This document shows positions 5,504 through 48,990 of a stretch of 64,000 nucleotides of DNA, piece after piece (position 1 is the stretch's first letter; each line of letters begins with the position of its first letter). Made by a program: the position numbers and the translations under genes. Below the pieces are notes generated by a model, which was given only the letters and a program-made list of their open reading frames with translations, was not told the DNA's origin and did not search any database. The stretch lies in the NCBI RefSeq assembly GCF_000482705.1, contig NZ_AXWO01000002.1, forward strand, positions 248,001 to 312,000, in the 5' to 3' direction. The DNA is from Glycomyces arizonensis DSM 44726 (GTDB lineage: Bacteria > Actinomycetota > Actinomycetes > Mycobacteriales > Micromonosporaceae).

Positions 5504-6043
5504 ATGTCCCGCATTGGGAAGCAGCCGATCCAGGTGCCCTCCGGCGTCGACGTGAAGATCGACGGCGCGACGGTCACCGTGAAGGGCCCCAAGGGCCAGC
5601 TCGTCCGCGAGCTGCCCGAGCCCATCGGCATCGAGAAGAACGAGGACGGTTCGCTCCAGGTGACCCGCCCGAACGACGAGCGCAAGTCGCGGGCCCTGCA
5701 CGGCCTGGCGCGCAGCCTCGTCAACAACATGGTCGTCGGCGTCTCCGAGGGGTACAAGAAGTCCCTGGAGATCAACGGCACCGGTTACCGCGCGCAGGCC
5801 AAGGGCAAGGGCGTGGAGATGAGCCTCGGCTTCTCCCACACCATCCAGGTCGACGCGCCGGAGGGCATCTCGTTCCAGGTCGAGCGGCCGACCCTGCTGC
5901 ACGTCGAGGGCATCGACAAGCAGCTCGTCGGTCAGGTCGCGTCGAACATCCGCCGACTGCGTCCGCCGGAGCCCTACAAGGGCAAGGGCGTGAAGTACGT
6001 CGACGAGCGCATCCGCCGCAAGGCCGGGAAGGCAGGTAAGTAA
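5504..6043 (+). CDS. rplF: 50S ribosomal protein L6
   Basis: L6, 179 aa, binds near the sarcin-ricin loop. It starts MSRIGKQPI behind a perfect AAGGAGG ribosome-binding site (5488-5494). The C-terminal [16 protein letters not shown] signature is intact. The stop overlaps the rplR ATG by one base. Confidence 0.98.
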
Positions 6044-6438
6044 TGGCGAGCAAACTCGAGCGCCGTCGCCCGTCAGGGTCGGTCTCCCAGCGCCGTCGGA
6101 TCGCGAAGAACCGGCGCCACTTCCGTGGCCGCAAGAAGGTCACCGGCACGGCCGAGCAGCCGCGCCTGGCGGTGTTCCGCTCCTCGAAGCACATCGTGGC
6201 CCAGGTCATCGACGACGTGAAGGGCCACACGCTGGCCGCCGCGTCGACGGTCGAGCCCGACCTGCGCGCCTTCGAGGGCGACAAGACCGCGAAGGCCAAG
6301 GAGGTCGGCAAGCTCGTCGCCGAGCGCGCGAAGGAAGCCGGCGTCGAAGCGGTCGTGTTCGACCGCGGCGGACTCCAGTACCACGGCCGCATCGCGGCCC
6401 TGGCCGACGCCGCCCGCGACAACGGCCTGAAGTTCTAA
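6043..6438 (+). CDS. rplR: 50S ribosomal protein L18
   Basis: L18, 131 aa, the central 5S rRNA-binding protein. A basic N-terminal tail precedes the [19 protein letters not shown] core, and it ends [26 protein letters not shown], the canonical C-terminus. In nearly all bacteria rpsE follows directly. Here a terminator hairpin and about 10.7 kb of unrelated genes intervene before rpsE at 17211. Confidence 0.98.
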
Positions 6439-6457
6439 CCGCATAGCACGGCTCGAA

Positions 6458-6488
6458 AGCCGGGAGGGAGCCTTGCTCCTTCCCGGCT
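6458..6488 (+). terminator. Hairpin terminator after rplR
   Basis: Arms 6458-6471 and 6475-6488 pair over 14 positions with one mismatch and a 3-nt loop, 20 nt after the rplR stop. No long T tract follows, as is usual in high-GC actinomycetes. It closes the upstream half of the spc operon and so separates it from the inserted cluster. Confidence 0.8.
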
Positions 6489-6577
6489 CTTCCGTTCGTG
6501 CCGGGGTTCGGTGTGGATGGTGAACGACACGGCCGACCTGCCTTGAACGCCCGATGGGCGTAAGGAAGACTGGTCCG

Positions 6578-8389
6578 GTGCGATCCCCGAAGATGACCCG
6601 CAAGGCGGTGCTCGCCTCCGGCGTGGCCGCCTCCCTGGCGGCCGCCGGATGCTCCAAGGACGAGTCCGGATCCGATGACCCGACCGATCCGAGCACCGGG
6701 CAGGATGAGGCCATCGACGAAGCGAAGGAGTACGCGACCGACCGGCTGGCGTCCATGACCATCGAGGAGAAGGTCGGCCAGCTGTTCATGGTGTACGTCA
6801 ACGGCTCCAGCGCCGACACCGATGATCCCGACGACGTCGCCGCCAACCAGGACCGCTTCGGCGTCGACAACGCCGCGCAGCTCATCGAGGCCCACCGGCC
6901 CGGCGGGATCATCTACTTCACGTGGGCGGGCAACGTCGACGATCCCGAGCAGACCGCGAAACTCTCCAACGGCCTCCAGGAGGCCGCGGGCGACGGCGTG
7001 CCGCTGTTCGTCGCCGTCGACCAGGAGTACGGCGTCGTCGCCCGCATCGGCGAGCCCGCCACGCAGTTCCCCGGCGCCATGCCGCTCGGGGCCACCCGGG
7101 ACGCCGAGGCCGCCTCGCGGGCCGCCGAGATCGCCGGAGCCGAGCTGCGGGCCATGGGCCTGAACCTGAACTTCGCCCCCGACGCCGACGTCAACGTCAA
7201 CCCCGCGAACCCGGTCATCGGCGTCCGCTCGTTCTCCTCCGACCCCGCGCTCACCGCCGAGCTGACGGCCGCGCAGGTCACCGGCTACCAGACCGGCGGC
7301 GTCGCGGCCTCGGCGAAGCACTTCCCCGGCCACGGCGACACCGACGTCGACAGCCACGTCGGCCTGCCGGTGATCACCCACTCCGCCGACGAGTGGGCCG
7401 AGATCGACGCGCCGCCGTTCAAGGCCGCGATCGAGGCCGGCGTCGACATGATCATGTCGGCGCACCTCCAGTTCCCCGCGCTCGACGACTCCCTCAAGCC
7501 CGCGACGCTCTCGAAGCCGATCCTCACCGGCCTGCTGCGCGACGAGCTCGGCTTCGACGGCGTGGTCATCACCGACTCCCTGGAGATGGAGGGCGTGCGC
7601 ACCGAGTTCGGCGACGAGCGCGTGCCGGTCATGGCGCTCCTGGCCGGGGTCGACATGCTGCTCATGCCGCCGGACTTCGTGCTGGCCCGCGACGCGGTGC
7701 TGGCGGCGGTCGAATCCGGCGAGCTGACCGAGGACCGCGTCGACGCCTCGGTGCGGCGGCTCCTGGAGCTCAAGTACCGGCGCGGCATCGTCACCGGTCC
7801 GATGACCGACGCGGGCGCCGCGCCCGACGTCGTCGGCACCGACGAGCACCTCGCGGCGGCCGACGACATCTCGGACCGCGCCATCACGCTGCTGCAGAAC
7901 GACGGCGTGCTCCCGCTCGCGGCCGACGGCGCGTCGGTGCTCGTGACCGGCTGGGGCGAGAACACGACCGCCGTCATCGCCGACGAGCTGAACCGCCTCG
8001 GCGCCCAGGCCGAGGTGCTCCTGACCGGCGACGAGCCGGGCGGCGACGCCATCGCCTCGGCGGTGTCCGCGGCTGGCGGCAAGGACCTCGTCGTGGTGTC
8101 GACGTTCTCGGTCGCCGCGGGCTCGCCGCAGATCGACCTCGTCGACGCCCTTTTGGACTCGGGCGTCCCGGTGGTCGCGGCGGCGGTCGGCACTCCCTAC
8201 GACATCGCGCACCTCACCGGCGTCAACGCGTACCTGGCGACGTACTCCTACACCGATGGCGCGCTGCGGTCGCTGGCGGAGGCCGTCCGCGGTGAGATCA
8301 CGCCGCAGGGCCGCCTCCCGGTGGACGTTCCCGCAGGTGACGGCTCCGGCAACGTCCTGTTCGAGTTCGGTTCCGGTTCGGGCTGGTAG
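6578..8389 (+). CDS. GH3 beta-N-acetylhexosaminidase-like lipoprotein (NagZ family)
   Basis: Predicted exported glycosidase of about 603 aa. NagZ-type GH3 enzymes remove GlcNAc from muropeptides or chito-oligomers. An N-terminal signal ends in a lipobox (AAGC, Cys about 25), so it is probably a membrane-anchored lipoprotein. The NagZ signature KHFPGHGDTDVDSH (about residues 247-260) provides the His/Asp acid-base pair, and VITDSLEMEG holds the likely nucleophile (Asp about 333). A C-terminal Rossmann-like domain (about 440-600) completes a two-domain GH3. The GTG at 6578 is chosen because AAGGAAG lies 11 nt upstream; ATG 6554 and 6593 are in frame too. It is the first gene of the salvage cluster inside the spc operon. 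Confidence 0.85.
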   Translation: MRSPKMTRKAVLASGVAASLAAAGCSKDESGSDDPTDPSTGQDEAIDEAKEYATDRLASMTIEEKVGQLFMVYVNGSSADTDDPDDVAANQDRFGVDNAAQLIEAHRPGGIIYFTWAGNVDDPEQTAKLSNGLQEAAGDGVPLFVAVDQEYGVVARIGEPATQFPGAMPLGATRDAEAASRAAEIAGAELRAMGLNLNFAPDADVNVNPANPVIGVRSFSSDPALTAELTAAQVTGYQTGGVAASAKHFPGHGDTDVDSHVGLPVITHSADEWAEIDAPPFKAAIEAGVDMIMSAHLQFPALDDSLKPATLSKPILTGLLRDELGFDGVVITDSLEMEGVRTEFGDERVPVMALLAGVDMLLMPPDFVLARDAVLAAVESGELTEDRVDASVRRLLELKYRRGIVTGPMTDAGAAPDVVGTDEHLAAADDISDRAITLLQNDGVLPLAADGASVLVTGWGENTTAVIADELNRLGAQAEVLLTGDEPGGDAIASAVSAAGGKDLVVVSTFSVAAGSPQIDLVDALLDSGVPVVAAAVGTPYDIAHLTGVNAYLATYSYTDGALRSLAEAVRGEITPQGRLPVDVPAGDGSGNVLFEFGSGSGW

Positions 8390-8423
8390 CGCCGGGTCAT
8401 CCCGATTTTCCCGAGAAGTCGAA

Positions 8424-8437
8424 GAAAGTTATTTTCA
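8424..8437 (+). promoter_or_regulatory. Operator-like site 1 upstream of GH25 gene
   Basis: GAAAGTTATTTTCA, a partly palindromic A+T-rich word just upstream of the -35 of the GH25 gene. It matches 12 of 14 positions of a site in front of murQ (10303) and resembles one in front of the kinase (12371, other strand). Two RpiR regulators are encoded in the same cluster, so an RpiR operator is the simplest reading; this is inferred. Confidence 0.5.
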
Positions 8438-8442
8438 CACGC

Positions 8443-8472
8443 TTGACGCCGTATGGAACTTCTCTCCATACT
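8443..8472 (+). promoter_or_regulatory. Promoter of the GH25 gene with internal palindrome
   Basis: TTGACG (8443-8448), 18-nt spacer, CATACT (8467-8472). The spacer and -10 contain a perfect 7-bp inverted repeat, GTATGGA-N7-TCCATAC (8451-8471). A dimeric repressor bound there would block RNA polymerase. Confidence 0.55.
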
Positions 8473-8539
8473 GGGTCCGAGTGCGATACCTCGCACTCTC
8501 CCCCAATCGGTAGATCTCCTTACAAGCAGGGAGTCTCGT

Positions 8540-9316
8540 GTGAACCACTTCTCAAGCGACGAAATCCGCCCAAGACGCCGCGGCCTCAAGGCGCTCATCG
8601 GCCTGCTCGCCTCGGCGGCGCTCACCGCGGCGCTCATGGCCGTGGCGAGCCCGGCCTCGGCCCAGTCCAGCCCGACCGGCGTCGACGTCTCGAACTGGCA
8701 GGGCTCGATCAACTGGACCTCGGTCAAGAACGCCGGGATCGACTTCGCCTACATCAAGGCCACCGAGGGCACCTCCTATCGGGACCCCCGATTCGACGAC
8801 AACTATCCGGGCGCCTACTACGCGGGCGTCATCCGCGGCGCCTACCACTTCGCCCGGCCCTCGTACTCGTCCGGCTCGACGCAGGCGAACTTCTTCGCCT
8901 CCAACGGCGGGGCCTGGTCGGCCGACAACCTGACCCTCCCCGGCGCCGTCGACCTCGAGGCCCCGCCCTCGGGCGCGCGGTGCTACGGCCTCTCCACCAC
9001 CCAGATGCGCAACTGGATCTCCGACTTCTACAACACGTACAAGTCCCGGACCGGCCGCGACGTCGTCATCTACACCACCGCCTCATGGTGGAACTCCTGT
9101 ACCGGCTCATGGACCGGCATGGCCGCCAAGAGCCCGCTGTGGGTGGCCCACTGGGGCGCCTCCAGTCCGGCCCTCCCCGCCGGCTGGAGCAACACCACCT
9201 GGACGTTCTGGCAGTACACCTCGAGCGGATCGGTCTCGGGCATCGCCGGCAACGTCGACCGCGACCACTTCAACGGCTCGCAGGCGCGCCTGCTGGCCCT
9301 GGCGAACAACACGTAG
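8540..9316 (+). CDS. Secreted GH25 muramidase (lysozyme)
   Basis: GH25 N,O-diacetylmuramidase of 258 aa, which cuts the MurNAc-GlcNAc bond of peptidoglycan outside the cell. A Sec signal peptide (basic RPRRR, hydrophobic stretch, cleavage after ASA at about residue 41) is followed by the GH25 barrel. It begins GVDVSNWQG (catalytic-site Asp about 49) and has DLEAP (Asp 138/Glu 140) as the acid motif. The start GTG at 8540 has AGGGAG 6 nt upstream; the ATG at 8453 lies within the promoter. No cell-wall-binding repeat is seen. Phage endolysins share the fold, but the signal peptide and the neighbours favour a host enzyme feeding MurNAc salvage. Confidence 0.9.
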   Translation: MNHFSSDEIRPRRRGLKALIGLLASAALTAALMAVASPASAQSSPTGVDVSNWQGSINWTSVKNAGIDFAYIKATEGTSYRDPRFDDNYPGAYYAGVIRGAYHFARPSYSSGSTQANFFASNGGAWSADNLTLPGAVDLEAPPSGARCYGLSTTQMRNWISDFYNTYKSRTGRDVVIYTTASWWNSCTGSWTGMAAKSPLWVAHWGASSPALPAGWSNTTWTFWQYTSSGSVSGIAGNVDRDHFNGSQARLLALANNT

Positions 9317-9358
9317 TCCCCGTCCCGGAGGCCGGGCCCGCCGCGGTCCGGTCTCCGG

Positions 9359-10246
9359 CTACTGCGCCGCCCGCTGGCGGCCGGAGACGGCCGCGGCGGT
9401 GGCGGCCAGCGCCTTGACGCTGCGCCGCCGCAGCCGCGCGGCGACGCCGACGAACAGGCAGTCGACCACCATGAGCTGGGCGATGCGGCTCACCGTCGCC
9501 CCCGAGCGGTACGTCGTCTCGCGCGCGGCGGTGGTGAGCACGTGGTCGGCCACCGAGGCCAGCGGCGAGCGGGCGTGGTTGGTGATCGCCACCGTCGCCG
9601 AGCCGCGGGCCCGCGCCGCCTCCAGGAACTCGACGGTCTCCGTCGTCGCCCCCGAGTGCGAGATCCCCACGGCCGCGTCGTGGCTTCCCGCGAGCGCCGT
9701 GGCCACGAGCGCCGAGTGGACGTCGGGCCAGCAGAACGCGGTGCAGCCGATGCGGTGGAGCTTCTTGGTCAGGTCCGCGCCCACGATCCCGGAGGCCTCG
9801 ACGCCGAAGACGTCGACGCGCCCGGCCGCGGCGAGCGCGGCGACGGCCGCTTCGCAGGCGTCGGTGTCGAGCGCGTCGGCGGTGTCGGTGATGGCGCCGA
9901 CGTCGGCGTAGCTGACGGTGGCGATGACGCGGGCCATGTCGGCGCCGGTGGGGATGTCGCCCCCGGCGATCTCCCGGTCGGGGCCCTCGTCGGTCGAGAT
10001 GACGGCCTGCGCGGCCCGCATCCGCAGCTCGCGGTGACCGGCCAGCCCGAGGGAGCGGCAGAACCGGACGACGGTGGCCTCCGAGGTCCCGGCGGCGCGC
10101 GCCAGCTCGGTGATGGTGCGCGTCGCGGTTGCCTCGGGTTCGCGGATGATCTCCTGGGCGACCTTCGTCTCGGCCTTCGACAGCGAGGGGAGGAGGGATT
10201 TGATGAGCACCAGGAGGTTCGGCGTGTCGGTGCGGCTGGCAGGCAT
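9359..10246 (-). CDS. RpiR-family transcriptional regulator (MurR-like)
   Basis: About 295 aa. An N-terminal HTH_6 domain (ITELARAAGTSEATVVRFCRSLG) is joined to a C-terminal SIS domain (VFGVEASGIVGADLTKKL, ISHSGATTETVEFLEAAR) that binds phosphosugars. It is divergent from murQ, with the operator-like site at 10303-10316 in the shared region. By analogy with MurR it probably senses MurNAc-6-P or GlcNAc-6-P. The ATG at 10246 is preferred; a TTG at 10270 is possible. This is one of two RpiR proteins in the cluster, and they are only distantly alike. Confidence 0.88.
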   Translation of the reverse strand: MPASRTDTPNLLVLIKSLLPSLSKAETKVAQEIIREPEATATRTITELARAAGTSEATVVRFCRSLGLAGHRELRMRAAQAVISTDEGPDREIAGGDIPTGADMARVIATVSYADVGAITDTADALDTDACEAAVAALAAAGRVDVFGVEASGIVGADLTKKLHRIGCTAFCWPDVHSALVATALAGSHDAAVGISHSGATTETVEFLEAARARGSATVAITNHARSPLASVADHVLTTAARETTYRSGATVSRIAQLMVVDCLFVGVAARLRRRSVKALAATAAAVSGRQRAAQ

Positions 10247-10302
10247 GTGCTCACGGTACACCCGAAGCAACGGTACAATTCTTCACAAATCATGACTGCG
10301 AT

Positions 10303-10328
10303 GAAATTTATCTTCACCGAGCTAGGCT
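10303..10328 (+). promoter_or_regulatory. murQ promoter region with operator-like site 2
   Basis: GAAATTTATCTTCA (10303-10316) matches site 1 at 12 of 14 positions. The -10 hexamer TAGGCT (10323-10328) ends 7 nt before the murQ GTG, so the mRNA is probably leaderless. The operator would sit between -35 and -10. Confidence 0.5.
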
Positions 10329-10335
10329 CGCAACT

Positions 10336-11286
10336 GTGAGTGAGACGAGCGAGGACCGCGACGCGCACGCCGCATTGGCGACGCTGTCGACCGAACGAGC
10401 CGACCCCAGGTACGCCGCGATCGACCGGCTCGGGACCCTGGAATTGGCGCGGACCATGAACGAGGCCGACGCTACCGTGCCCGACGCGGTCGCCGCCGTC
10501 CTCCCCGAACTGGCCGACGCGATCGACGCCGTCGTCGAGCGCCTCGCCTCCGGCGGGCGCCTGCGCTACGTCGGCGCGGGCACCGCCGGGAGGGTCGCGG
10601 TCATGGACGCCGCCGAGTGCCCGCCGACGTTCTCCACTCCGCCCGAGCTCGTGGCGGCCATCCTCGCCGGCGGCAGGGCCGCCGAGGGCGGCGCCGTCGA
10701 GGGCACCGAGGACGACGCCGAGGCCGGGGCCGCCGCGATCGCGGCCGACGGCATCGGGCCCGCCGACGTCGTCGTCGGCCTGGCCGCCAGCGGCCGCACC
10801 CCGTTCGTCGTGGCCGCCGTCCGCGAGGCCCGCCGCCGCGGCGCCCTCACCGTCGGCCTGTCGTGCAACGCGGGGACCGTCCTGTCGGCCGAGGCCGAGC
10901 ACGCGATCGAGGTCCGGGTCGGCACGGAGGTCGTCGCCGGGTCGACCCGGCTCAAGTCCGGGACGGCCCAGAAGCTCGTGCTCAACATGATCTCGACGAT
11001 CACCATGGTCAGGCTCGGCAAGGTCTACCGCAACTACATGGTGGACATGCGGGTGCTCAACTCCAAGCTCGCCGACCGCGCCGTGCGCATGATCGGCGAG
11101 ATCACCGGCGCCGACCGCCCCGCCGCCCAGGCGGCGCTCGCGTCGGCCGGGAACCGCATCAAGACCGCCGTGGTCATGATCGAGCTCGGCGTCGACGCGG
11201 CCGAGGCCGACCGGCGCCTGACCGAGGCCGACGGCCGCCTCGCCGCCGCGCTGACCGCCGACTCGGTGCAGCGGCACAGCGCCTGA
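10336..11286 (+). CDS. murQ: N-acetylmuramic acid 6-phosphate etherase
   Basis: MurQ, 316 aa, cleaves the lactyl ether of MurNAc-6-P to give GlcNAc-6-P and D-lactate in the cytoplasm. The signature GGRLRYVGAGTAGRVAVMDAAECPPTF (about residues 74-100) contains the SIS fold phosphosugar loop and the catalytic Glu. A second conserved stretch (KSGTAQKLVLNMISTITM) and the C-terminal helical region are intact. The GTG start coincides with the predicted transcription start. Next to a MurK-like kinase and muramidases it defines a MurNAc salvage route that needs no PTS. Confidence 0.95.
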   Translation: MSETSEDRDAHAALATLSTERADPRYAAIDRLGTLELARTMNEADATVPDAVAAVLPELADAIDAVVERLASGGRLRYVGAGTAGRVAVMDAAECPPTFSTPPELVAAILAGGRAAEGGAVEGTEDDAEAGAAAIAADGIGPADVVVGLAASGRTPFVVAAVREARRRGALTVGLSCNAGTVLSAEAEHAIEVRVGTEVVAGSTRLKSGTAQKLVLNMISTITMVRLGKVYRNYMVDMRVLNSKLADRAVRMIGEITGADRPAAQAALASAGNRIKTAVVMIELGVDAAEADRRLTEADGRLAAALTADSVQRHSA

Positions 11287-11311
11287 GCGGCCACACATCT
11301 ACACTGACGAG

Positions 11312-11356
11312 GTTATATCCTATAACTTATATCTATAATTTATATGCTATAGATTC
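11312..11356. repeat. A+T-rich modular island 1
   Basis: About 45 nt made almost wholly of A and T between the convergent murQ and kinase genes, in DNA otherwise about 70% G+C. It contains TATATCCTATAA (11314-11325), a 12-mer also found in islands 2, 3 (twice) and 4, and TATAACTTATA (11321-11331), shared with islands 2 and 3. The 3' part runs up to the kinase stop codon. No hairpin with a GC stem is present here. Confidence 0.75.
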
Positions 11357-11362
11357 CAAGGC

Positions 11363-12328
11363 TCAAGCGCCGGTGAGCCGCCGGTGCAGCTCCCGCCTCG
11401 CCGCCGCGTCGCGGGCGAAGCCGCGCCCGGCCAGCCACGCCGCGCCGCACACCGGCTCGGCCGCTGGCGCGACCGGCGTGCCGGGGAGGTCCTCGGCCAA
11501 GCGCTCCCGCAGGCCCAGCGCCACCGGCGTCGCCTCGATCAAGAGGCTCCCGGCCAGCACGATCGGGCGGCCCCGCTCGGCCACGGCCCCGGCCGTCGCC
11601 GCCAGGTGCCCGACCGCCCGGTCCACGATGTCCCGCGCGAGCGCGTCCCCGCCCTCGGCCGCCTCGCACACCACCGGGGCGAACCGCGCCAAGCGGACCG
11701 GCGACTCGGCCATGCAGCGCCCGATGACCGCCGCCGACGTGCGGTTCGGCGCCCCGATCGCGGCGATGACGGCCTGCGCCATCCAGCCGCCCGGCCCGTT
11801 TCCGTCCAAGTGCCGCAGCGTCGCCGCCACCGCCTCGCGCCCGAGCCAGAAGCCCGAGCCCTCGTCGCCCAGCAGCCACCCGTAGCCGTCCGACCGCCCG
11901 GCGATCTCGGTGTGCCCGCGCACCGCCAGCGCGACCGCGCCGGTCCCGGCGACGACGACCGCGCCGTCGGCCTCGTCCGTGCCCGCCGCGAAGGCGGTCA
12001 CGGCGTCTGAGACGAACGACACCGGCGCCCCGACGCCGAGCGCGGCCCGCAGTTCGCCGCCGAAGTGCTCGGCGGCGCCGGGCATCGACAGCATCCCGGC
12101 CGCCCCCGCGCAGACCGCGCCGACCGCCTCGGGCCCGACCGGGCCGAGCGCGGCCGCGGCCGCATCGGCCATGCGCCGCAGCGCCGTGTCGGACTCCACG
12201 CCGACCATGTTGGCCGGGCCGGACTCGCCGGTGCCGAGGACCGCGCCGCCGGAGTCGGCGAGCAGCGCGCGCGTGCGCGTGCCTCCGGCGTCGATGCCGA
12301 GGAACAGAGGTGAATGCATGGGGGCCAT
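11363..12328 (-). CDS. BadF/BadG-type sugar kinase (MurNAc/GlcNAc kinase, MurK/NagK-like)
   Basis: About 321 aa, ASKHA-fold kinase of the BadF/BadG/BcrA/BcrD family, which includes MurK and eukaryotic-type GlcNAc kinase. The phosphate-1 loop GIDAGGTRTRALL lies at the N-terminus, the adenosine/phosphate-2 region AGTGAVALAV in the middle, and GDEGSGFWLGREAV is typical of this family. It is expected to phosphorylate imported MurNAc and/or GlcNAc to the 6-phosphate, the MurQ substrate. The ATG at 12328 follows a GGAG Shine-Dalgarno; the frame continues upstream into the promoter and is not used. It is convergent with murQ and divergent from the second RpiR gene. Confidence 0.85.
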   Translation of the reverse strand: MAPMHSPLFLGIDAGGTRTRALLADSGGAVLGTGESGPANMVGVESDTALRRMADAAAAALGPVGPEAVGAVCAGAAGMLSMPGAAEHFGGELRAALGVGAPVSFVSDAVTAFAAGTDEADGAVVVAGTGAVALAVRGHTEIAGRSDGYGWLLGDEGSGFWLGREAVAATLRHLDGNGPGGWMAQAVIAAIGAPNRTSAAVIGRCMAESPVRLARFAPVVCEAAEGGDALARDIVDRAVGHLAATAGAVAERGRPIVLAGSLLIEATPVALGLRERLAEDLPGTPVAPAAEPVCGAAWLAGRGFARDAAARRELHRRLTGA

Positions 12329-12370
12329 TCTCTCCAAGAGCGGCGTGCCGGAGTGCGCGGCCCGGCCGCC

Positions 12371-12386
12371 TGTAAAAATAATTCTT
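12371..12386 (-). promoter_or_regulatory. Operator-like site 3 between kinase and RpiR/ABC operon
   Basis: Read on the minus strand this 16-mer (AAGAATTATTTTTACA) matches site 1 with its two flanking bases at 12 of 16 positions. It lies 42 nt upstream of the kinase start and 7 nt from the -35 of the divergent operon, so one regulator could control both directions. Confidence 0.4.
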
Positions 12387-12392
12387 GAGACC

Positions 12393-12422
12393 TTGACATT
12401 CTCGTCTTTCGAATAATAGTTT
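12393..12422 (+). promoter_or_regulatory. Promoter of RpiR/ABC operon
   Basis: Consensus TTGACA (12393-12398). Candidate -10 elements are TAATAG (12414-12419, 15-nt spacer) or TAGTTT (12417-12422, 18-nt spacer). The region is A+T-rich compared with its surroundings. Confidence 0.5.
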
Positions 12423-12453
12423 TTGTTCATACCCTTCGTGAGGGAGACCACAC

Positions 12454-13383
12454 ATGAGCCGAAGCATCGCCGACACGCCCGACGACGCCGTCCTCGTGCC
12501 GTCGGCCGCCGGTGTGCTCGACCGCATCCGCAGCCAGGCCGGCGAGTTCTCCGAGGCCCTGTCCAGAGTCGCCGAGCAGGTCCTCGCCGACCCCGAGGCC
12601 GCGGCGCACGCCACCATCATGGACCTCGCCGAACTCTCCGGCACCTCACCGGGCACCATCACCCGCTTCTGCCGCCACCTCGGCTACGACGGCTACGCGG
12701 CCCTGCGCGTCGCCATCGCCACCGAGACCGGCCGCGCCTCCGCCCGCTCAGAGACCGGCTGGGACGTCAACATCGGCCAGGAGATCGCCCCCGGCGACTC
12801 CCTCGACCGCGTCCTCAAGCAGCTCGTCACCGTCGACGCCGCCATGCTGCGCGACACCGTCGACACCCTCGACCTCGACGCCGTCGAACGCGTCGCCGCC
12901 AAGGTCGCATCGGCCCGGCGCGTCGACGTCTACGGCGTCGGCTCGAGCGCCATCGTCGCCCGCGAACTCCAGATGGGCTTCTACCGCACCGGCGTCGCCG
13001 CCTGGGCCTGGACCGAGGTCCACGACGCCCTCGCCAGCGCCGCCCTGCTCGGCGGCGACGACGTCGCCATCGCCGTCTCGCACTCCGGGGCCACCGCCGA
13101 GACGATCGAGATGCTCACCGAGGCCGCCAGCCGCGGCGCCTTGACCGTCGCCGTCACCGCCTGCCCCGACTCGCCCATCGCCGAGGTCGCCGACGTCGAA
13201 CTGCTCTCGGCCGCCCGCCGCACCGGGTTCCGCGCCGACATGCTCGCCACCCGGCACTCGCAGCTGCTCGTCGCCGACCTGGTCCACATCGCCGTCGCGC
13301 AGCTGCGGTTCCCCGAGACGATGGAGGCGCTGGAATCACGCGCCAGGGCGGTCGTGGGCCACCGGCCCGCGCCACGAACCTGA
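12454..13383 (+). CDS. RpiR-family transcriptional regulator
   Basis: 309 aa, HTH_6 domain (MDLAELSGTSPGTITRFCRHLGYDG) plus SIS domain (VYGVGSSAIVARELQMGF, VSHSGATAETIEMLTEAA). The ATG has AGGGAG 7 nt upstream. It is the first gene of a probable operon with the ABC importer that begins 67 nt downstream, so it probably controls uptake. The HTH helix differs from the first RpiR protein at many positions, so the two may read different effectors or share operators. Confidence 0.9.
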   Translation: MSRSIADTPDDAVLVPSAAGVLDRIRSQAGEFSEALSRVAEQVLADPEAAAHATIMDLAELSGTSPGTITRFCRHLGYDGYAALRVAIATETGRASARSETGWDVNIGQEIAPGDSLDRVLKQLVTVDAAMLRDTVDTLDLDAVERVAAKVASARRVDVYGVGSSAIVARELQMGFYRTGVAAWAWTEVHDALASAALLGGDDVAIAVSHSGATAETIEMLTEAASRGALTVAVTACPDSPIAEVADVELLSAARRTGFRADMLATRHSQLLVADLVHIAVAQLRFPETMEALESRARAVVGHRPAPRT

Positions 13384-13450
13384 CGGAACACGGATCCGCC
13401 GTTCCGCAGGACCACACCGATCCACAAGAGAGCCCGAGGAGCAAGATCCC

Positions 13451-14851
13451 ATGAGGAAGCCACCCACAACCCCCAACGTCAGCCGCCGCCGCCTCCTGGG
13501 GACCACCGCGGCCGGACTGGCGGCGACCTCGCTCGGCGCCTGCGCCACCAGCGGTGGCGACGACGACACCGAGGACGTCAGCGTCGGCGACGACGCCGAG
13601 AACCCCTTCGGCGTCGACGGCTCGGCACCGCTCGAAGTCGTCATCTTCGACGGCGGCTTCGGCAACGAGTACGCCGTCCAGCACGAGGAGATCTACAACC
13701 GCGCCTTCCCCGACGCCGAGATCAAGCACACGGCCACGCAGGCCATCGCCGAGACCCAGCAGCCGCGCTTCTCCCAGGGCGAGCCCTGCGACGTGCTCGA
13801 CAACTCCGGCGCCCAGCAGATCCCGATGGACGCCCTCGTCACCGACGGCGAGCTCGCCGAGCTCACCCCGCTGCTGGAGGCCCCCTCCTATGACGACCCG
13901 AACGTCACCGTCCTCGACACCCTCCGCGACGGCGTTTTGACCGCCGGCACCTTCAACGGCAAGGTCTACGCGCTCAACTACGTGTTCTCCGCGTGGACGA
14001 TCTGGTACGACGCGGCCCTGTTCCGCGAGAAGGGATGGACCCCGCCCGAGACGTGGGACCAGATGCTCGCCCTGTGCCCCGACATCCAGGCCGAGGGCAT
14101 CGCGCCGTGGACCTACGCCGGGCAGCACCCGGTGTACCTCTACGACATGTTCCTCATGCTCGCCGGGCGCCACGGAGGCGTCCAGGTCCTCAAGGACATC
14201 GACGAACTCAAGCCCGACGCGTGGCACAACGCCTCGGTCGTGGCCGCCGCCGAGGCCATGTACGGGCTCTGGGAGGCCGGCTACATCCTCGACGGCACGC
14301 CGGGCATCGACCACATCCAGTCGCAGACGGCGTTCAACAACCACGAGGCCGCGTTCATCCCCGTCGGCTCCTGGCTCCCCAACGAGCAGAAGGGCATCGC
14401 GCCCGACGGCTTCGAGTACGCGCCGATGGGCGTGCCCTACCTCGAAGGCAGCGCGCAGCCCGGGCTCATCAGCGCCGGCGGCGACGAGCCGTTCGTGGTG
14501 CCCGAGAAGGCCGCCAACAAGCCCGGCGCCTACGAGTACCTGCGCATCATGCTCTCCCAGGAGGGCGCGCAGATCTTCGGCGACACCGTGCAGGCCGCGA
14601 CCGTGGTCAAGGGCGTCGAGCTCGACAACCCGGCGGCGAAGATGACCGACGAGCTCGTCTCCAACCCCGAGGACCTGTTCCAGCCGCGGTTCCGCTTCTG
14701 GTACACGAAGATGAACGATGAGGTGCGGCCCGCGCTTGGGGCGCTCATGTCCGGTGAGAACACCCCCGAGGAGTTCATCGAGCGGATGCAGACCGTCGCG
14801 GACGAGACCGCCGCCGACGACAGCATCGAGAAGTTCCACCACGACGCGTAG
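13451..14851 (+). CDS. ABC transporter sugar-binding lipoprotein (NgcE-like)
   Basis: 466 aa. A twin-arginine-type N-terminus (SRRRLLG) and a lipobox (LGAC, about residue 35) indicate an exported lipoprotein. The body is a family-1 solute-binding protein and resembles the Streptomyces NgcE GlcNAc/chitobiose receptor in layout (KVYALNYVFSAWTIWYD; FIPVGSWLPNE). With the two permeases downstream it would import GlcNAc- or MurNAc-containing sugars released outside by the GH3 and GH25 enzymes. Substrate is inferred from context. Confidence 0.85.
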   Translation: MRKPPTTPNVSRRRLLGTTAAGLAATSLGACATSGGDDDTEDVSVGDDAENPFGVDGSAPLEVVIFDGGFGNEYAVQHEEIYNRAFPDAEIKHTATQAIAETQQPRFSQGEPCDVLDNSGAQQIPMDALVTDGELAELTPLLEAPSYDDPNVTVLDTLRDGVLTAGTFNGKVYALNYVFSAWTIWYDAALFREKGWTPPETWDQMLALCPDIQAEGIAPWTYAGQHPVYLYDMFLMLAGRHGGVQVLKDIDELKPDAWHNASVVAAAEAMYGLWEAGYILDGTPGIDHIQSQTAFNNHEAAFIPVGSWLPNEQKGIAPDGFEYAPMGVPYLEGSAQPGLISAGGDEPFVVPEKAANKPGAYEYLRIMLSQEGAQIFGDTVQAATVVKGVELDNPAAKMTDELVSNPEDLFQPRFRFWYTKMNDEVRPALGALMSGENTPEEFIERMQTVADETAADDSIEKFHHDA

Positions 14852-14880
14852 GAGGAGGGCCTGAGGAGAGCGGACCGATC

Positions 14881-15804
14881 ATGAGACACGGCAAGTACCC
14901 GTTCATCCTGAGCTTTCTGGCACTGCCGGTCGGGCTGTACGCCTGGCTGGTGCTGCTGCCGTTCGCCCAGGCCTTCCAGATCTCGTTCACCGACTGGAGC
15001 GGATCGTCGAACCAGTTCGAGTACATCGGGTTCGACAACTACGTCAATCTGTTCAAGGACGACCGCCTCGTCCTGCCGGCCCTGCGCAACACCGGGATCA
15101 TCCTGGTGGTGCTGCCGGTCGTCACCATCGCGCTGGGCCTGTTCTTCGCGTTCATGCTCAACATCGGCGGGCGCTCGCGGCAGGGCCGCATCGAGGGCGT
15201 GCGCGGCTCGCGCTTCCACAAGATCGTCTTCTTCTTCCCGCAGGTGCTGTCGCTGGCGATCATCGGCATCCTCTGGAAGCAGGTGTACGCGCCCGAGAAC
15301 TTCGGCGGACTCATCACCGGCGGGCTCGAGGCGTTCGGGCTGCCCTCGCCGGTCAACGGCTTCCTGGCGGACAAGCGCTTCGTCCTCGCCAGCGTCATCG
15401 CCGTCCTGGTGTGGAGCGCCGTCGGCTTCTACCTCGTGTTCTTCTCCTCGGCGATGGCCTCCATCCCGAGGGACCTCTACGAGGCGGGCATCGTCGACGG
15501 CGCCGGGCGCTTCCAGACGTTCTTCAGGATCACCCTGCCGCTGCTGTGGGAGTCGGTCCAGACCGCCTGGATCTACCTGTCGATCATCGCGCTCGACGTG
15601 TTCGTCCTGGTCTACATGATGACGCCCGGGAAGGGCGGCCCCGACGGCGCCAGCGAGGTCGTCGGCGGCGTCATCTGGAAGTACGCGTTCACCCACGGCG
15701 AGCAGGCCTTCGCCTCGGCGCTCGGCGTCGTCCTGTTCTTCGCCGCCCTGTCCCTGGCCGTCGTCTCGCTGCGGTTCGGGCGCCGCGAGCGGATCGAATT
15801 CTGA
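14881..15804 (+). CDS. ABC sugar transporter permease 1 (NgcF-like)
   Basis: 307 aa, six predicted membrane segments, MalF/UgpA type. The EAA loop that docks the ATPase reads YEAGIVDGAGRFQTFFRITLP (about residues 200-220). It is 29 nt downstream of the binding protein and 11 nt upstream of the second permease. Confidence 0.88.
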   Translation: MRHGKYPFILSFLALPVGLYAWLVLLPFAQAFQISFTDWSGSSNQFEYIGFDNYVNLFKDDRLVLPALRNTGIILVVLPVVTIALGLFFAFMLNIGGRSRQGRIEGVRGSRFHKIVFFFPQVLSLAIIGILWKQVYAPENFGGLITGGLEAFGLPSPVNGFLADKRFVLASVIAVLVWSAVGFYLVFFSSAMASIPRDLYEAGIVDGAGRFQTFFRITLPLLWESVQTAWIYLSIIALDVFVLVYMMTPGKGGPDGASEVVGGVIWKYAFTHGEQAFASALGVVLFFAALSLAVVSLRFGRRERIEF

Positions 15805-15815
15805 GGAGCGACCCC

Positions 15816-16712
15816 ATGGCCACCCAGACCTCCATCGAGACCCGGAAGCCCCCCGCTCCGGCCGCGCCGACCCGCGAGCCCCGCCGCGAGGGCGCGGTCA
15901 TGAACGTCTTCTCCCACGCCTTCCTGTGGCTGTGGGGGCTGATGGTCATCATCCCCGTCGTGTGGATCGTCCTGAGCTCGTTCAAGACGACCCGGGAGAT
16001 CGCCGGCGACCCGCTCGGCCTGCCCGCGGCGCCGCAGTGGGACAACTACGCCAGCGCCTGGACGAACGGCAACATCGGCACCTACTTCATCAACACGCTC
16101 CAGGTCATGGTGTTCTCCATCAGCGGCACGATGCTGCTGGGCGCGATGGCCGCCTACGTCCTGGCGCGCTACGAGTTCCGCGGCAACCGGCTCGTCTACT
16201 TCGCCTTCGCCGGCGGCATGATGTTCCCGGTCTTCCTGGCGCTGTTCCCGCTGTTCAAGATCCTCGACAACGTCGGCATGCTCAACACCTACCCGGGCCT
16301 GATCCTCGTCTACATCGCCTATTCGCTGCCGTTCACGGTGTTCTTCCTGACCGCGTTCTTCCGGACGCTCCCCACCGGCGTGGCCGAGGCCGCCCTCATC
16401 GACGGCGCCGGGCACTACCGGCTGTTCTTCCAGGTCATGCTGCCTATGGCCAAACCCGGCCTGATCGCGATCACCATCTTCAACATCATCGGCCAGTGGA
16501 ACCAGTTCCTGCTGCCGCTGGTGCTGATGAGCGACCCCGAGGACGCGGTGATCTCCCAGGGCCTGGCGAACCTGGCACTGCGCCAGGGCTACGAGGGCGA
16601 TCAGGGAGCCCTGTTCGCCGGGACGGTGCTGGCGATGGTGCCGATCTTCATCGCCTACGTCATCTTCCAGCGCCAGATCCAGGCGGGACTGACCGCCGGA
16701 GCCATCAAGTGA
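15816..16712 (+). CDS. ABC sugar transporter permease 2 (NgcG-like)
   Basis: 298 aa, MalG/UgpE type with six membrane segments and an EAA loop AEAALIDGAGHYRLFFQVMLP. The ATG at 15816 has GAGGAG upstream; the reading frame extends upstream only by chance. No ATP-binding subunit follows. In actinomycetes such importers typically share the multipurpose ATPase MsiK encoded elsewhere. It is the last gene of the inserted cluster. Confidence 0.88.
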   Translation: MATQTSIETRKPPAPAAPTREPRREGAVMNVFSHAFLWLWGLMVIIPVVWIVLSSFKTTREIAGDPLGLPAAPQWDNYASAWTNGNIGTYFINTLQVMVFSISGTMLLGAMAAYVLARYEFRGNRLVYFAFAGGMMFPVFLALFPLFKILDNVGMLNTYPGLILVYIAYSLPFTVFFLTAFFRTLPTGVAEAALIDGAGHYRLFFQVMLPMAKPGLIAITIFNIIGQWNQFLLPLVLMSDPEDAVISQGLANLALRQGYEGDQGALFAGTVLAMVPIFIAYVIFQRQIQAGLTAGAIK

Positions 16713-16737
16713 GTCGCGCGGCATGAAAACCAAGTAC

Positions 16738-16824
16738 TCGCTATAGCATATAGCTTATATCATATAATCTATACTGGATAAAATATAACTTATAACATAT
16801 ATTTTATATTCTATATCCTATAAG
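16738..16824. repeat. A+T-rich modular island 2
   Basis: About 87 nt, over 85% A+T, directly downstream of the last transporter gene. It holds TATATCCTATAA (16812-16823), TATAACTTATA (16784-16794) and CTTATATCATATAATCTA (16754-16771); the last is an 18-mer identical to the reverse complement of part of island 3. With island 1 it brackets the kinase-RpiR-ABC block. Confidence 0.75.
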
Positions 16825-16825
16825 G

Positions 16826-16877
16826 TTCAGGTCACCGACCTGAATGAGCGGCGGCCGCCAGCCGGTGGCCGCCGCTC
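16826..16877 (+). terminator. Double hairpin after the ABC operon
   Basis: Two adjacent perfect inverted repeats: 16826-16833 with 16837-16844 (8 bp, 3-nt loop), then 16846-16856 with 16867-16877 (11 bp, GC-only, 10-nt loop). They abut the 3' side of island 2 and would end transcription of the transporter operon before the rpsE promoter. Confidence 0.65.
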
Positions 16878-17210
16878 GTGCGCATGCTCCGCGCGTCCGG
16901 TCGCGCGGCGGGATCGCGGCGCCGAAATCGAAGTCGCCGTCGGTCTCCTCCGTGCGCCCGACGGCGCGCCGCCGCCAGGAGCGTTCGACCGTGTGCAGCG
17001 GCCACCGCCTCGTGTATTCGCCGCACGCGCGCTGCGGCGATTCGCTGTGTCCGCTGCCTCACCTCCACCCCGCCGTTGGGCGCACCGGGCACTAGCAGGC
17101 ATAATCGAGAGGTTGCGCCCAGGCGCAGCGTTCTGCCGGGCTCAGACCCGGGCATGCAAAGCGAGTCGGCCCCAAGCGGCCGGCGTTGAGCAGTGAAAGG
17201 AATCAGTCTC
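16878..17210 (+). promoter_or_regulatory. Gene-free stretch with the promoter of the distal spc operon
   Basis: No convincing gene. The best promoter is TTGGGC (17076-17081), 18-nt spacer, CATAAT (17100-17105), giving a leader of about 100 nt that contains a CCGGG/CCCGG hairpin (about 17138-17153). It would let rpsE-rpmD-rplO be transcribed independently after being cut off from rplB-rplR. Confidence 0.5.
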
Positions 17211-17846
17211 GTGGCTGATCAACAGCAACAAGGCGGCAGGGACGGCGGTGACCGCGGCGGACGTGGCGGTCGCGGCGGTCGCGGTGGCCGTGACGGTCGC
17301 GGTCGCGACCGCGCGGAGAAGTCGCCGCACATCGAGCGCGTCGTCACCATCAACCGCGTGGCCAAGGTCGTCAAGGGCGGCCGCCGCTTCGCGTTCACCG
17401 CGCTCGTCGTCGTCGGCGACGGCGAAGGCAAGGTCGGCGTCGGCTACGGCAAGGCCAAGGAAGTCCCCGCGGCGATCGCCAAGGGCGTCGAAGAGGCCAA
17501 GAAGGCCTTCTTCGAGGTCCCGCGCATCGGCGGGACCATCCCGCACGAGGTCCTCGGCGAGGACGCCGCGGGCCAGGTGCTCCTCAAGCCCGCCTCCGCC
17601 GGTACCGGCGTCATCGCGGGCGGCCCCGTCCGCGCCGTCCTCGAGTGCGCCGGCGTGCACGACGTCCTGTCGAAGTCGCTCGGCTCGTCGAACGCGATCA
17701 ACATCGTCCACGCGACGGTGGCCGCGCTCAAGCAGCTCGAGAGCCCGGAGGCCGTCGCGGCCCGCCGCGGCATGCCGCTGGAGGACATCGCTCCCCAGGG
17801 CCTGCTGCGCGCCCGCGCCGAGGCCGCTCAGGCCGCGCAGGCGTAA
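17211..17846 (+). CDS. rpsE: 30S ribosomal protein S5
   Basis: S5, 211 aa, at the mRNA channel and decoding-fidelity centre. The KH-like double-stranded RNA domain begins at [19 protein letters not shown], and [13 protein letters not shown] and [12 protein letters not shown] follow. A Gly/Arg/Asp-rich tail of about 35 residues precedes it. The GTG at 17211 has AAAGGA 9 nt upstream; an upstream GTG at 17193 overlaps that site. Its normal partner rplR lies 10.7 kb away. Confidence 0.97.
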
Positions 17847-24131: not shown

Positions 24132-24208
24132 TGGGGTGATCGACGGGGCTTGAACCCGCGACCTCCTGGACCACAACCAAGCGCTCTACCAGCTGAGCTA
24201 CGACCACC
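24132..24208 (-). tRNA. tRNA-His (GTG)
   Basis: Cloverleaf on the minus strand. Acceptor GTGGTCG pairs with CGATCAC; anticodon stem CTTGG/CCAGG with loop TTGTGGT gives anticodon GTG. The T-arm (GGGTTCAAGCCC) and an encoded CCA are present. The extra G at -1 and the C at the discriminator position, the His identity elements, are both visible. It is the source of the 117-bp tandem duplicate to its left. Confidence 0.95.
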
Positions 24209-26573: not shown

Positions 26574-26593
26574 TGCCGCCGTGCCGCGACAAT

Positions 26594-26697
26594 CTTATAT
26601 TATATATCCTATAAGGGGGGAAGTGTGTAGAGTATATCTTATAGGATATAAAATATACCTGCTTGTAGATTATATGATATAAGTTATAGAATATATG
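26594..26697. repeat. A+T-rich modular island 3
   Basis: About 104 nt. It contains TATATCCTATAA on the plus strand (26603-26614) and again on the minus strand (26639-26650). On the minus strand it also has CTTATATCATATAATCTA (26666-26683) and TATAACTTATA (26678-26688), both shared with island 2. It lies between the sigma terminator and the stop of the convergent NlpC/P60 gene. Confidence 0.75.
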
Positions 26698-26703
26698 GCT
26701 CGG

Positions 26704-27699: not shown

Positions 27700-27713
27700 G
27701 AGTGGCCTTTCTT

Positions 27714-27885
27714 CCTCGGCCGCCTACCGGGTTAGCTGTCGGGTTCGGGCTGGGAAGGGCGCCCTACCCGTCCAGGACAGGGCCCTGGGCGGGATTCACC
27801 CCGGCGTCGAGAGGAAGGAAGGGGGCGGCGTCATGCGCGCCCCCGGACGCGGTGGGTTCCCGGTCTGCGCAGTGGCGAGGACGGA
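27714..27885 (-). ncRNA. ydaO-yuaA (cyclic di-AMP) riboswitch
   Basis: On the minus strand, 5' to 3', the leader carries the conserved blocks of this riboswitch: GACCGGGAACCC (about 27855-27866), CGGGGTGAATCC (27793-27804), the TAGGGC internal element and GAACCCGACAGCTAACCCGG (about 27729-27748). A terminal stem can form between CCTCG (27876-27880) and CGAGG (27714-27718). It ends about 15 nt before the NlpC/P60 GTG, whose ribosome-binding site follows directly. In this class c-di-AMP turns expression off. Confidence 0.85.
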
Positions 27886-27985
27886 ACCGGAGGGAGCAGG
27901 CTCGACGCTCACGTGCGCGCAGTTCGGCGGTCCGGTCGGGTGGGCCTCTGGGGGAGGCCCTGACGTCCCGTCCGGAACGGCCACG

Positions 27986-48784: not shown

Positions 48785-48796
48785 CAGCGCCTGCTT

Positions 48797-48919
48797 CAAA
48801 TCCTATAGGATATATTGTATAGGAAATATCTATCGCACTCATAATTATAGGACATACTCTATATTCTATAAGATATAGCGAGAATGAACTTATAGATTAT
48901 AAAATATATCCTATAATCT
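48797..48919. repeat. A+T-rich modular island 4
   Basis: About 123 nt, the longest of four islands. It has TATATCCTATAA (48905-48916) and a 12-bp perfect palindrome ATCCTATAGGAT (48800-48811) built from the same words in both orientations. It lies after the DUF2469 stop and before pdtaS, whose own -10 lies outside it (48980 region). No terminator hairpin with GC stem is seen at this junction. Confidence 0.75.
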
Positions 48920-48990
48920 CCTGGAGTGCGCCGTTTCGGCGGCGAAAACCGTCTACGGGCCTCGGCCGGGTGCGCGGCTAATATTGTCCG

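Follow-up and report, generated by a model that had tools for sequence, protein, structure and literature searches.

The gene order rplR-rpsE-rpmD-rplO-secY is one of the most conserved in bacteria, and its interruption in Glycomyces arizonensis DSM 44726 raises the question of how a block of catabolic genes came to lie inside the spc ribosomal protein operon, and how the genes beyond that block are expressed. We analyzed a stretch of 64,000 nucleotides (nt) from this strain (contig NZ_AXWO01000002.1, positions 248,001 to 312,000; here called the window), in which rplR and rpsE are parted by genes for a glycoside hydrolase family 3 (GH3) protein, a GH25 protein, an RpiR regulator, MurQ, a BadF-type kinase, a second RpiR regulator, and NgcEFG. 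Domain matches placed this salvage cluster for N-acetylmuramic acid (MurNAc) and N-acetylglucosamine (GlcNAc) where a preliminary description made from the sequence alone had put it, with a count of nine genes in place of the ten given there. We consider it likely that a native salvage cluster was relocated into an spc operon that was already partly divided and whose distal half had a promoter and an RNA leader of its own. The split is old within the genus. Its parts were probably native ones, and a new candidate ribosomal leader goes with it.

Interruption of spc throughout the genus Glycomyces

We found rplR and rpsE in each of the 22 Glycomyces genomes, and they were adjacent in none. In the 12 genomes in which they shared a contig, they were 10.8 to about 64.8 kb apart. 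Searches by tblastn with the window genes, counting only matches to more than 40% of the query, found cluster genes after rplR in every genome, and the order rplR-GH3-GH25-rpiR1-murQ-kinase-rpiR2-ngcEFG was kept across the genus as far as the contigs reach. In the same searches, the GH3 match was absent from G148 and the GH25 match from G135; in G145, murQ and the kinase gene were on different contigs, with other DNA past the kinase gene. The last gene of the cluster, ngcG, lay upstream of rpsE on a shared contig in 15 genomes and on a separate contig in the other 7.

Outside the genus, 48 genomes from 43 genera of the family were searched, and both genes were found in 45 (G002, G038, and G039, in which one or both were not found, were left out of the gap count). 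With rpsE starts estimated by projection, here and for the named loci, the rplR-rpsE gap was -4 to 194 nt in 42 of the 45 genomes and wider in three, namely, G026 (874 nt), G013 (1,001 nt), and G014 (1,270 nt). Among 80 named loci with rplR, 12 were of the Glycomyces type (one a metagenome-assembled genome), with no rpsE within 10 kb; of the remaining 68, 67 had estimated gaps of 4 to 119 nt, and the estimate for L142 was negative. The two genes are normally contiguous, as the preliminary description had stated. Because they are near-contiguous in the outgroups, the interruption of spc is, as judged from gene order, a derived state.

In a midpoint-rooted tree of five ribosomal-operon proteins, the grouping ((Glycomyces,G013),G014) had support of 1.0 at both nodes, followed by genus g5, which includes a genome that we take to be that of Stackebrandtia nassauensis. 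The same rooting placed G007 and G026 among the rest of the family, apart from Glycomyces and g5.

A counterpart of the cluster in a sister genus

The sister-genus genome G014 carries a cluster with the order GH3, NamZ, beta-lactamase-fold protein, Amidase_2, rpiR1, murQ, kinase, rpiR2, and ngcEFG, and its murQ and ngcE genes lie 194 to 198 kb from its rpsE. Between the window and G014, identity was 69 to 83% for MurQ, both regulators, and NgcEFG (six of the eight shared cluster proteins) and 66 to 93% for ribosomal proteins; it was lower for GH3 (56%) and the kinase (49%). In seven other genera with murQ near ngcEFG, identity to the window was 39 to 63% for MurQ, RpiR1, and NgcEFG. An amidase gene resembling that of G014, not present in the window, lies between GH25 and rpiR1 in 15 of the 22 Glycomyces genomes. 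Because the order of the shared genes is unchanged in G014, where they occupy a different site, the cluster looks native to the lineage, and a reading of it as a foreign island was set aside.

The G014 cluster is flanked on its right by genes for a flavodoxin and a PfkB kinase and by six more genes. In the stretches examined, these eight genes were found in order and without the cluster in all four Glycomyces genomes checked (G069, G117, G128, and G000, the last being the genome of the window). The PfkB gene was 160 to 176 kb from rplR in the three Glycomyces genomes with both on one contig, and its side and orientation relative to rplR match those in G014. The cluster itself has opposite orientations relative to rplR in G014 and in Glycomyces, a difference that two overlapping inversions would account for. 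The cluster probably moved a single time, ahead of the radiation of the genus. The insertion or rearrangement proposed in the preliminary description survives as such a relocation into the junction; an insertion that was recent or confined to one genome was rejected, since the cluster lies at rplR in all 22 genomes.

Gene layout and predicted function of the cluster

The junction contains the following features, given in window coordinates.

6043..6438, + strand: rplR (uL18), final gene of the proximal spc half (PF00861, 164 bits)
6458..6488, + strand: hairpin 3' of rplR, probable terminator between the ribosomal genes and the cluster
~6578..8389, + strand: GH3 NagZ-like beta-N-acetylhexosaminidase, probable lipoprotein (PF00933, 311 bits; start codon uncertain)
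8453..9316, + strand: GH25 muramidase (PF01183, 191 bits; start codon uncertain, as a promoter-like site lies at 8443-8472)
9359..10270, - strand: rpiR1, RpiR/MurR-type regulator 1 (HTH_6 and SIS)
10336..11286, + strand: murQ, MurNAc-6-phosphate etherase (TIGR00274, 343 bits; cutoff, 302)
11363..12451, - strand: BadF-family amino-sugar kinase, NagK/MurK-like (PF01869)
12454..13383, + strand: rpiR2, RpiR/MurR-type regulator 2 (HTH_6 and SIS)
13451..14851, + strand: ngcE, GlcNAc/chitobiose-binding protein (TIGR03851, 522 bits; cutoff, 399.65)
14881..15804, + strand: ngcF, permease (PF00528)
15816..16712, + strand: ngcG, permease (PF00528)
17076..17105, + strand: probable rpsE promoter, TTGGGC-18-CATAAT (conservation of the -10 block)
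17161..17191, + strand: structured RNA element, GC-GA-GUC-[hairpin]-GGC-GUUGA-GC (pattern, alignment, and covariance model)
17211..17846, + strand: rpsE (uS5), first gene of the distal spc half (PF00333 match at 17334-17522)

Downstream of rpsE follow rpmD, rplO, secY, and adk. Seven of the nine cluster genes run in the direction of the operon, with rpiR1 and the kinase gene opposite to it, and domain scans of the nine found no mobile-element families. A scan of viral contigs with ngcG gave a single weak relative.

As judged from their families, GH25 and GH3 would cleave peptidoglycan fragments, NgcEFG would import amino sugars, and the kinase would phosphorylate them. The gene families thus predict a coherent MurNAc/GlcNAc salvage module that contains no phosphotransferase system (PTS) gene, as the preliminary description had recognized. 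MurQ and NgcE both scored above their curated cutoffs, and NgcE is accompanied by two permeases, with no ATPase gene in the cluster. The other proteins were clear members of their families and fell below the cutoffs of the corresponding equivalogs: GH3 scored 180 bits against 207 for NagZ (NF003740), the BadF-family kinase 109 bits against 370 for NagK_SO3507 (NF046058), and the two RpiR regulators 102 and 99 bits against 408 for MurR (NF012026). By eye, the GH3 protein has the lipoprotein signal-like motif AAAGC.

MurQ yields GlcNAc-6-phosphate and D-lactate (PMC5061867), and in Streptomyces coelicolor, NgcE binds GlcNAc with a Kd of 1.9 µM and MurNAc more weakly, with a Kd of 25 µM, the importer system being named NgcEFG-MsiK (PMC6167110). 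The Bacillus subtilis cluster murQ-murR-murP-amiE-nagZ-ybbC (PMC5061867) has MurQ, a MurR-type regulator, and a NagZ-type GH3 protein in common with Glycomyces, and the G014 version is like this peptidoglycan recycling cluster in adding NamZ (an exo-muramidase; L217, 11045-12433), the beta-lactamase-fold protein, and the amidase. No counterpart of NamZ or of the beta-lactamase-fold gene was found in the Glycomyces loci that were searched. Unlike B. subtilis, Glycomyces has an ABC importer and a cytosolic kinase in place of the PTS protein MurP, and it has GH25. S. coelicolor SCO4305-4308 (murQ/murR; PMC5061867) offers an actinobacterial MurQ without MurP, as in Glycomyces; murQ (SCO4307) and ngcEFG (SCO6005-6007) are separate loci there, whereas in Glycomyces they form one cluster inside spc (PMC5061867 and PMC6167110).

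Two alike sites, GAAANTTATNTTCAC, were noted at 8424-8438 (before GH25) and 10303-10317 (between rpiR1 and murQ) and are possible RpiR operators.

Transcription signals on either side of the cluster

The preliminary description had proposed a hairpin terminator after rplR and a promoter at 17076-17105. Folds of 31 sequences, compared by eye, showed an equivalent long hairpin after rplR in all 22 Glycomyces genomes and in G014 and other hairpins at this place in G007, G004, and G097, among others. Upstream of rpsE, every one of the 22 Glycomyces genomes has the same -10 block, GGCATAATCGAG. A matching box, AGGCATAATGGTGAGGTTGC, occupies a comparable position upstream of rpsE in the 1-kb spacer of G013, and G014 has a weaker match to the promoter box. 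Because the matching box occurs in G013, a genome without murQ and ngcE, the rpsE promoter is probably older than the move of the cluster. Hairpins and a promoter-like box thus occur in relatives without the insertion, and the order of events proposed here is read from them.

Two further suggestions of the preliminary description fared less well. The distal ribosomal genes were probably not rescued after the insertion, given the box in G013 and the presence of the RNA leader described below in nine relatives. Likewise, nothing shows that the cluster gained from a highly expressed locus: it is preceded by the hairpin, encodes two RpiR regulators, and contains two promoter-like sites found by a consensus scan, at 8443-8472 (before GH25) and 12393-12420 (before rpiR2). 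The scan found four promoter-like sites in 12 kb, compared with 0.4 expected; terminators showed no excess (3 found versus 3.6 expected).

A structured RNA element upstream of rpsE

The RNA element is followed after 3 nt by a purine-rich ribosome-binding site and after 19 nt by the GTG start codon of rpsE. Its consensus is GC-GA-GUC-[hairpin]-GGC-GYU-(GA, UA, AUA or UUA)-GC. We counted 31 instances, all upstream of rpsE, in the 22 Glycomyces genomes, G013, G014, five g5 genomes, G007, and G026; that of G139 was absent from the first pattern set and was added later from contig C136. Nine of 45 outgroup loci carried the element by pattern and 36 did not, and the rplR-rpsE gaps of the nine carriers were 79 to 1,270 nt. 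Since the pattern fixes the core letters, constancy of the core is a statement about 31 matching genomes together with the model search below. The hairpin inserts were of 30 distinct kinds, with 4 to 9 uninterrupted pairs and, in seven that were measured, lengths of 16 nt (G097) to 58 nt (G124).

In an alignment of 25 rows, all 200 pair cells were standard pairs, compared with 13 to 53% in slid controls, a score inflated by the kinship of the genomes and calculated with 6 of the 31 instances outside the alignment. Of the eight pairs, three show changes in both partners and five are invariant. A covariance model, which does not presuppose rpsE, was run over 200 genomes of the family with strict filters and 30 candidates scored per genome; it returned 29 matches at E values of ≤1.9e-7, each of them before rpsE. 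The elements of G066 and G083, which have long hairpins, were missed by the model at rpsE and are counted by pattern only. Weaker matches (27.4 bits and below, among the matches listed) were scattered in the genomes. A scan of 394 genomes of the class (15 candidates each; E ≤ 1e-5) returned only the window copy and a match in G375 (31.7 bits), whose 3-kb locus contains no ribosomal or cluster protein match and no GCGAGTC. In the genomes searched, strong matches were thus confined to rpsE of Glycomyces and some related genera. The consensus kink-turn has a three-nucleotide bulge followed by tandem G.A/A.G pairs; its GA step is found in 16 of the 31 leaders (GUUGA in 15 and GCUGA in 1), and the other 15 have UA.

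Rfam has no family at this position, and literature searches, judged by their listings or passages, turned up neither this leader nor a divided spc operon in Glycomyces. We propose the element as a new candidate autoregulatory ribosomal leader of the distal half-operon. Because midpoint rooting puts G007 and G026 outside Glycomyces plus g5, the leader may be older and have disappeared from other lineages, or the true root may be in another place.

In genus g18, two species matched the leader model away from rpsE, at 27 bits and E values of ~1e-5 (G018:C23:24857-24905 and G072:C54:30248-30296).

Likeness to 23S rRNA and a candidate ligand

Both strands of the leader core occur in the 23S rRNA of G013 and G046 as GCGAGUC-7 nt-GGCG, where GUC/GGC with a U.G pair forms part of a helix in the Rfam 23S structure; the Escherichia coli counterpart is CCGAGUC...GGGCGUUAAGU. 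This site is presumably H31/H32. The likeness is suggestive of mimicry of H31/H32 by the leader. Against it, shuffled rRNA operons matched in 17 to 85 of 1,000 cases, depending on the pattern, and the patterns were chosen after the match had been seen. We take uL15, the product of rplO from the distal half-operon, to be a candidate ligand. Literature searches, with passages of PMC9687910 among the material covered, found no support for uL15 at H31/H32. A uS8 or uL10 site as the template of the leader did not fit.

A fuller scenario can be offered only tentatively, and we regard it as rather doubtful. The leader would copy the H31/H32 junction of 23S domain II and be bound by a ribosomal protein encoded downstream, with uL15 as the candidate, giving distal spc a feedback of its own; this second control point would have split the operon and made the junction a safe landing site for the cluster and later, in individual species, for up to about 54 kb of further DNA.

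The analogy is with spc of E. coli, where uS8 regulates the same ribosomal operon by feedback through an RNA element (PMC10931766). The uS8 operator lies elsewhere in spc, whereas the Glycomyces element precedes rpsE and has another structure. According to the same review, the regulation of spc in B. subtilis, and in species other than E. coli and presumably Vibrio, is unknown. A set of 20 new candidate ribosomal leaders (PMC7247131) likewise consists of lineage-restricted structured RNAs before ribosomal genes; uS5, rpsE, uL18, and uS8 are absent from its main text, and the table rows listed include no rpsE leader. The Glycomyces leader offers a defined 31-nt target for testing spc regulation, together with a hypothesis on its ligand.

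Proposed course of events and alternatives

The gene order, the alternative site in the sister genus, the conservation of the parts, and the structure of the RNA with its distribution in the genomes searched were observed directly; the direction and path of the relocation, the transcription boundaries, the feedback, and the substrates are inferred. An existing salvage cluster would have moved ~160 to 195 kb in the Glycomyces ancestor and been reversed into the rplR|rpsE junction, where it was retained in the 22 genomes examined. The junction could have taken the cluster because spc had already come to consist, at least in part, of two transcription units. This state is suggested by relatives without the inserted cluster, among which are found hairpins downstream of rplR, a spacer as long as 1.3 kb, the leader, and, in G013, a promoter-like box. 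Today, the rplN-rplR transcript probably ends at the hairpin, and the cluster is probably transcribed from its own promoters under the two RpiR regulators. GH25 and the lipoprotein-like GH3 protein would free GlcNAc and MurNAc, which NgcEFG would import and the BadF kinase phosphorylate, and MurQ would convert MurNAc-6-phosphate to GlcNAc-6-phosphate. Transcription of rpsE and the following genes would start at the 17076-17105 site and run into the leader (17161-17191). As the leader immediately precedes the ribosome-binding site, a ribosomal protein may exert translational feedback through it.

Several observations weigh against this reading. Consensus scans neither listed the hairpin at 6458-6488, which has a weak T run, nor found the promoter at 17076-17105, so that both signals proposed earlier stand on their conservation in the 22 genomes and not on consensus. 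On its own, the leader pattern is not rare (2 window matches versus 0.93 expected), and the whole 5' leader had a folding z-score of -1.84, with 11 of 200 shuffles equally stable. GH25 was not found in the G014 region examined, and the nearest sister, G013, is without murQ and ngcE, so that a loss must be assumed there. The left flank of the G014 cluster had no convincing counterpart by the empty site, only weak matches (25 to 37%), which leaves the scar one-sided. Which position of the cluster is older depends on the contiguity of rplR and rpsE in the outgroups, and these genes are on separate contigs in 10 of the 22 Glycomyces genomes.

This last point, together with the draft state of the Glycomyces genomes (about 20 or more contigs), would favor an assembly artefact, which is nevertheless very unlikely and in our view hardly worth entertaining: 12 assemblies span rplR, the cluster, and rpsE on one contig in like order, and G139 has ngcG and the rpsE leader on one contig. 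Horizontal acquisition, by which the cluster would have come from another lineage straight into the operon, is unlikely. It would account for a position seen only in Glycomyces, for the low identities of GH3 and the kinase to G014, and for mobile DNA in the neighboring interval (in G154, T4SS-type ATPases and a recombinase), but MurQ, RpiR1, and NgcEFG are closer to those of G014 than to those of the seven other genera, the order of the shared genes is the same at the other site, and the nine window genes include none of a mobile-element family. We find it more improbable still that the cluster is cotranscribed within one continuous unit and gains high expression, the hairpin and promoter being incidental. 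The silence of the consensus scans and the common direction of seven of the nine genes fit such a unit; the two inner genes at 9359-10270 and 11363-12451 run against it, the hairpin and the identical -10 block recur in all 22 genomes, and up to 53.7 kb separates ngcG from rpsE in G154.

The nature of the RNA element is a more evenly balanced matter. That it serves for RNase III-like processing, enhances translation, or is bound by some other RNA-binding protein has a good deal in its favor, and we rate this only somewhat short of even. The range of hairpin lengths is one that a processing stem could have, 15 of the 31 leaders are without the GA step of the consensus kink-turn, and uL15 is only a candidate ligand. 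On the other side, GCGAGUC, GGC, and the U.G pair are constant (the pattern requires the core letters) while the stem varies, which speaks for recognition of the loop, and the 29 strong family matches all lie before rpsE.

Further insertions at the junction and other features of the window

The rplR|rpsE junction has stayed open to further insertions. The ngcG-rpsE interval is 0.2 to 0.5 kb in G069, G085, G160, and the window. In 12 Glycomyces genomes, it holds a related protein group (GH43 plus a ricin-type lectin in the one scanned), and GSDH/PKD and glycosyltransferase genes were also found there; contig C29 of G163 was covered except for its last 6.5 kb. In G154 (G. buryatensis, L077-L080), the interval of 53.7 kb contains T4SS-type ATPases, a resolvase-type recombinase, a DddA-like deaminase-domain protein, and other accessory genes and is an apparent integrative element inside spc. 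Insertions described in the conserved ribosomal cluster elsewhere are likewise small gene sets kept within a clade. Those compared here lie between operons (rpoBC-str and str-S10) or at rplL-rsmC, in Gammaproteobacteria and Bacilli, whereas the spc-internal changes in that set are losses or replacements of single genes (rpmJ, rpsN, and secY). Living relatives may thus represent intermediates in the break-up of spc, from gaps of 79 to 194 nt with a leader, through spacers of 0.9 to 1.3 kb with a leader, to the inserted cluster and later insertions.

In G166 (G. lechevalierae), the ngcE gene is interrupted between residues 130 and 131, with the parts on different long contigs (L085, 11023-11418; L086, 9109-10113); a rearrangement, a large insertion, and a misassembly are possible alternatives. 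AT-rich stretches with TATAGGATATA-like palindromic units occur in the window (GC content, 69%) at 11313-11351, 16741-16823, 26591-26700, and 48796-48930, and two of them sit at gene ends in the cluster region, between murQ and the kinase gene and after ngcG. Elsewhere in the window, we noted a tRNA at 24135-24207 (- strand) and a c-di-AMP riboswitch at 27706-27887 (- strand; RF00379, 58 bits).

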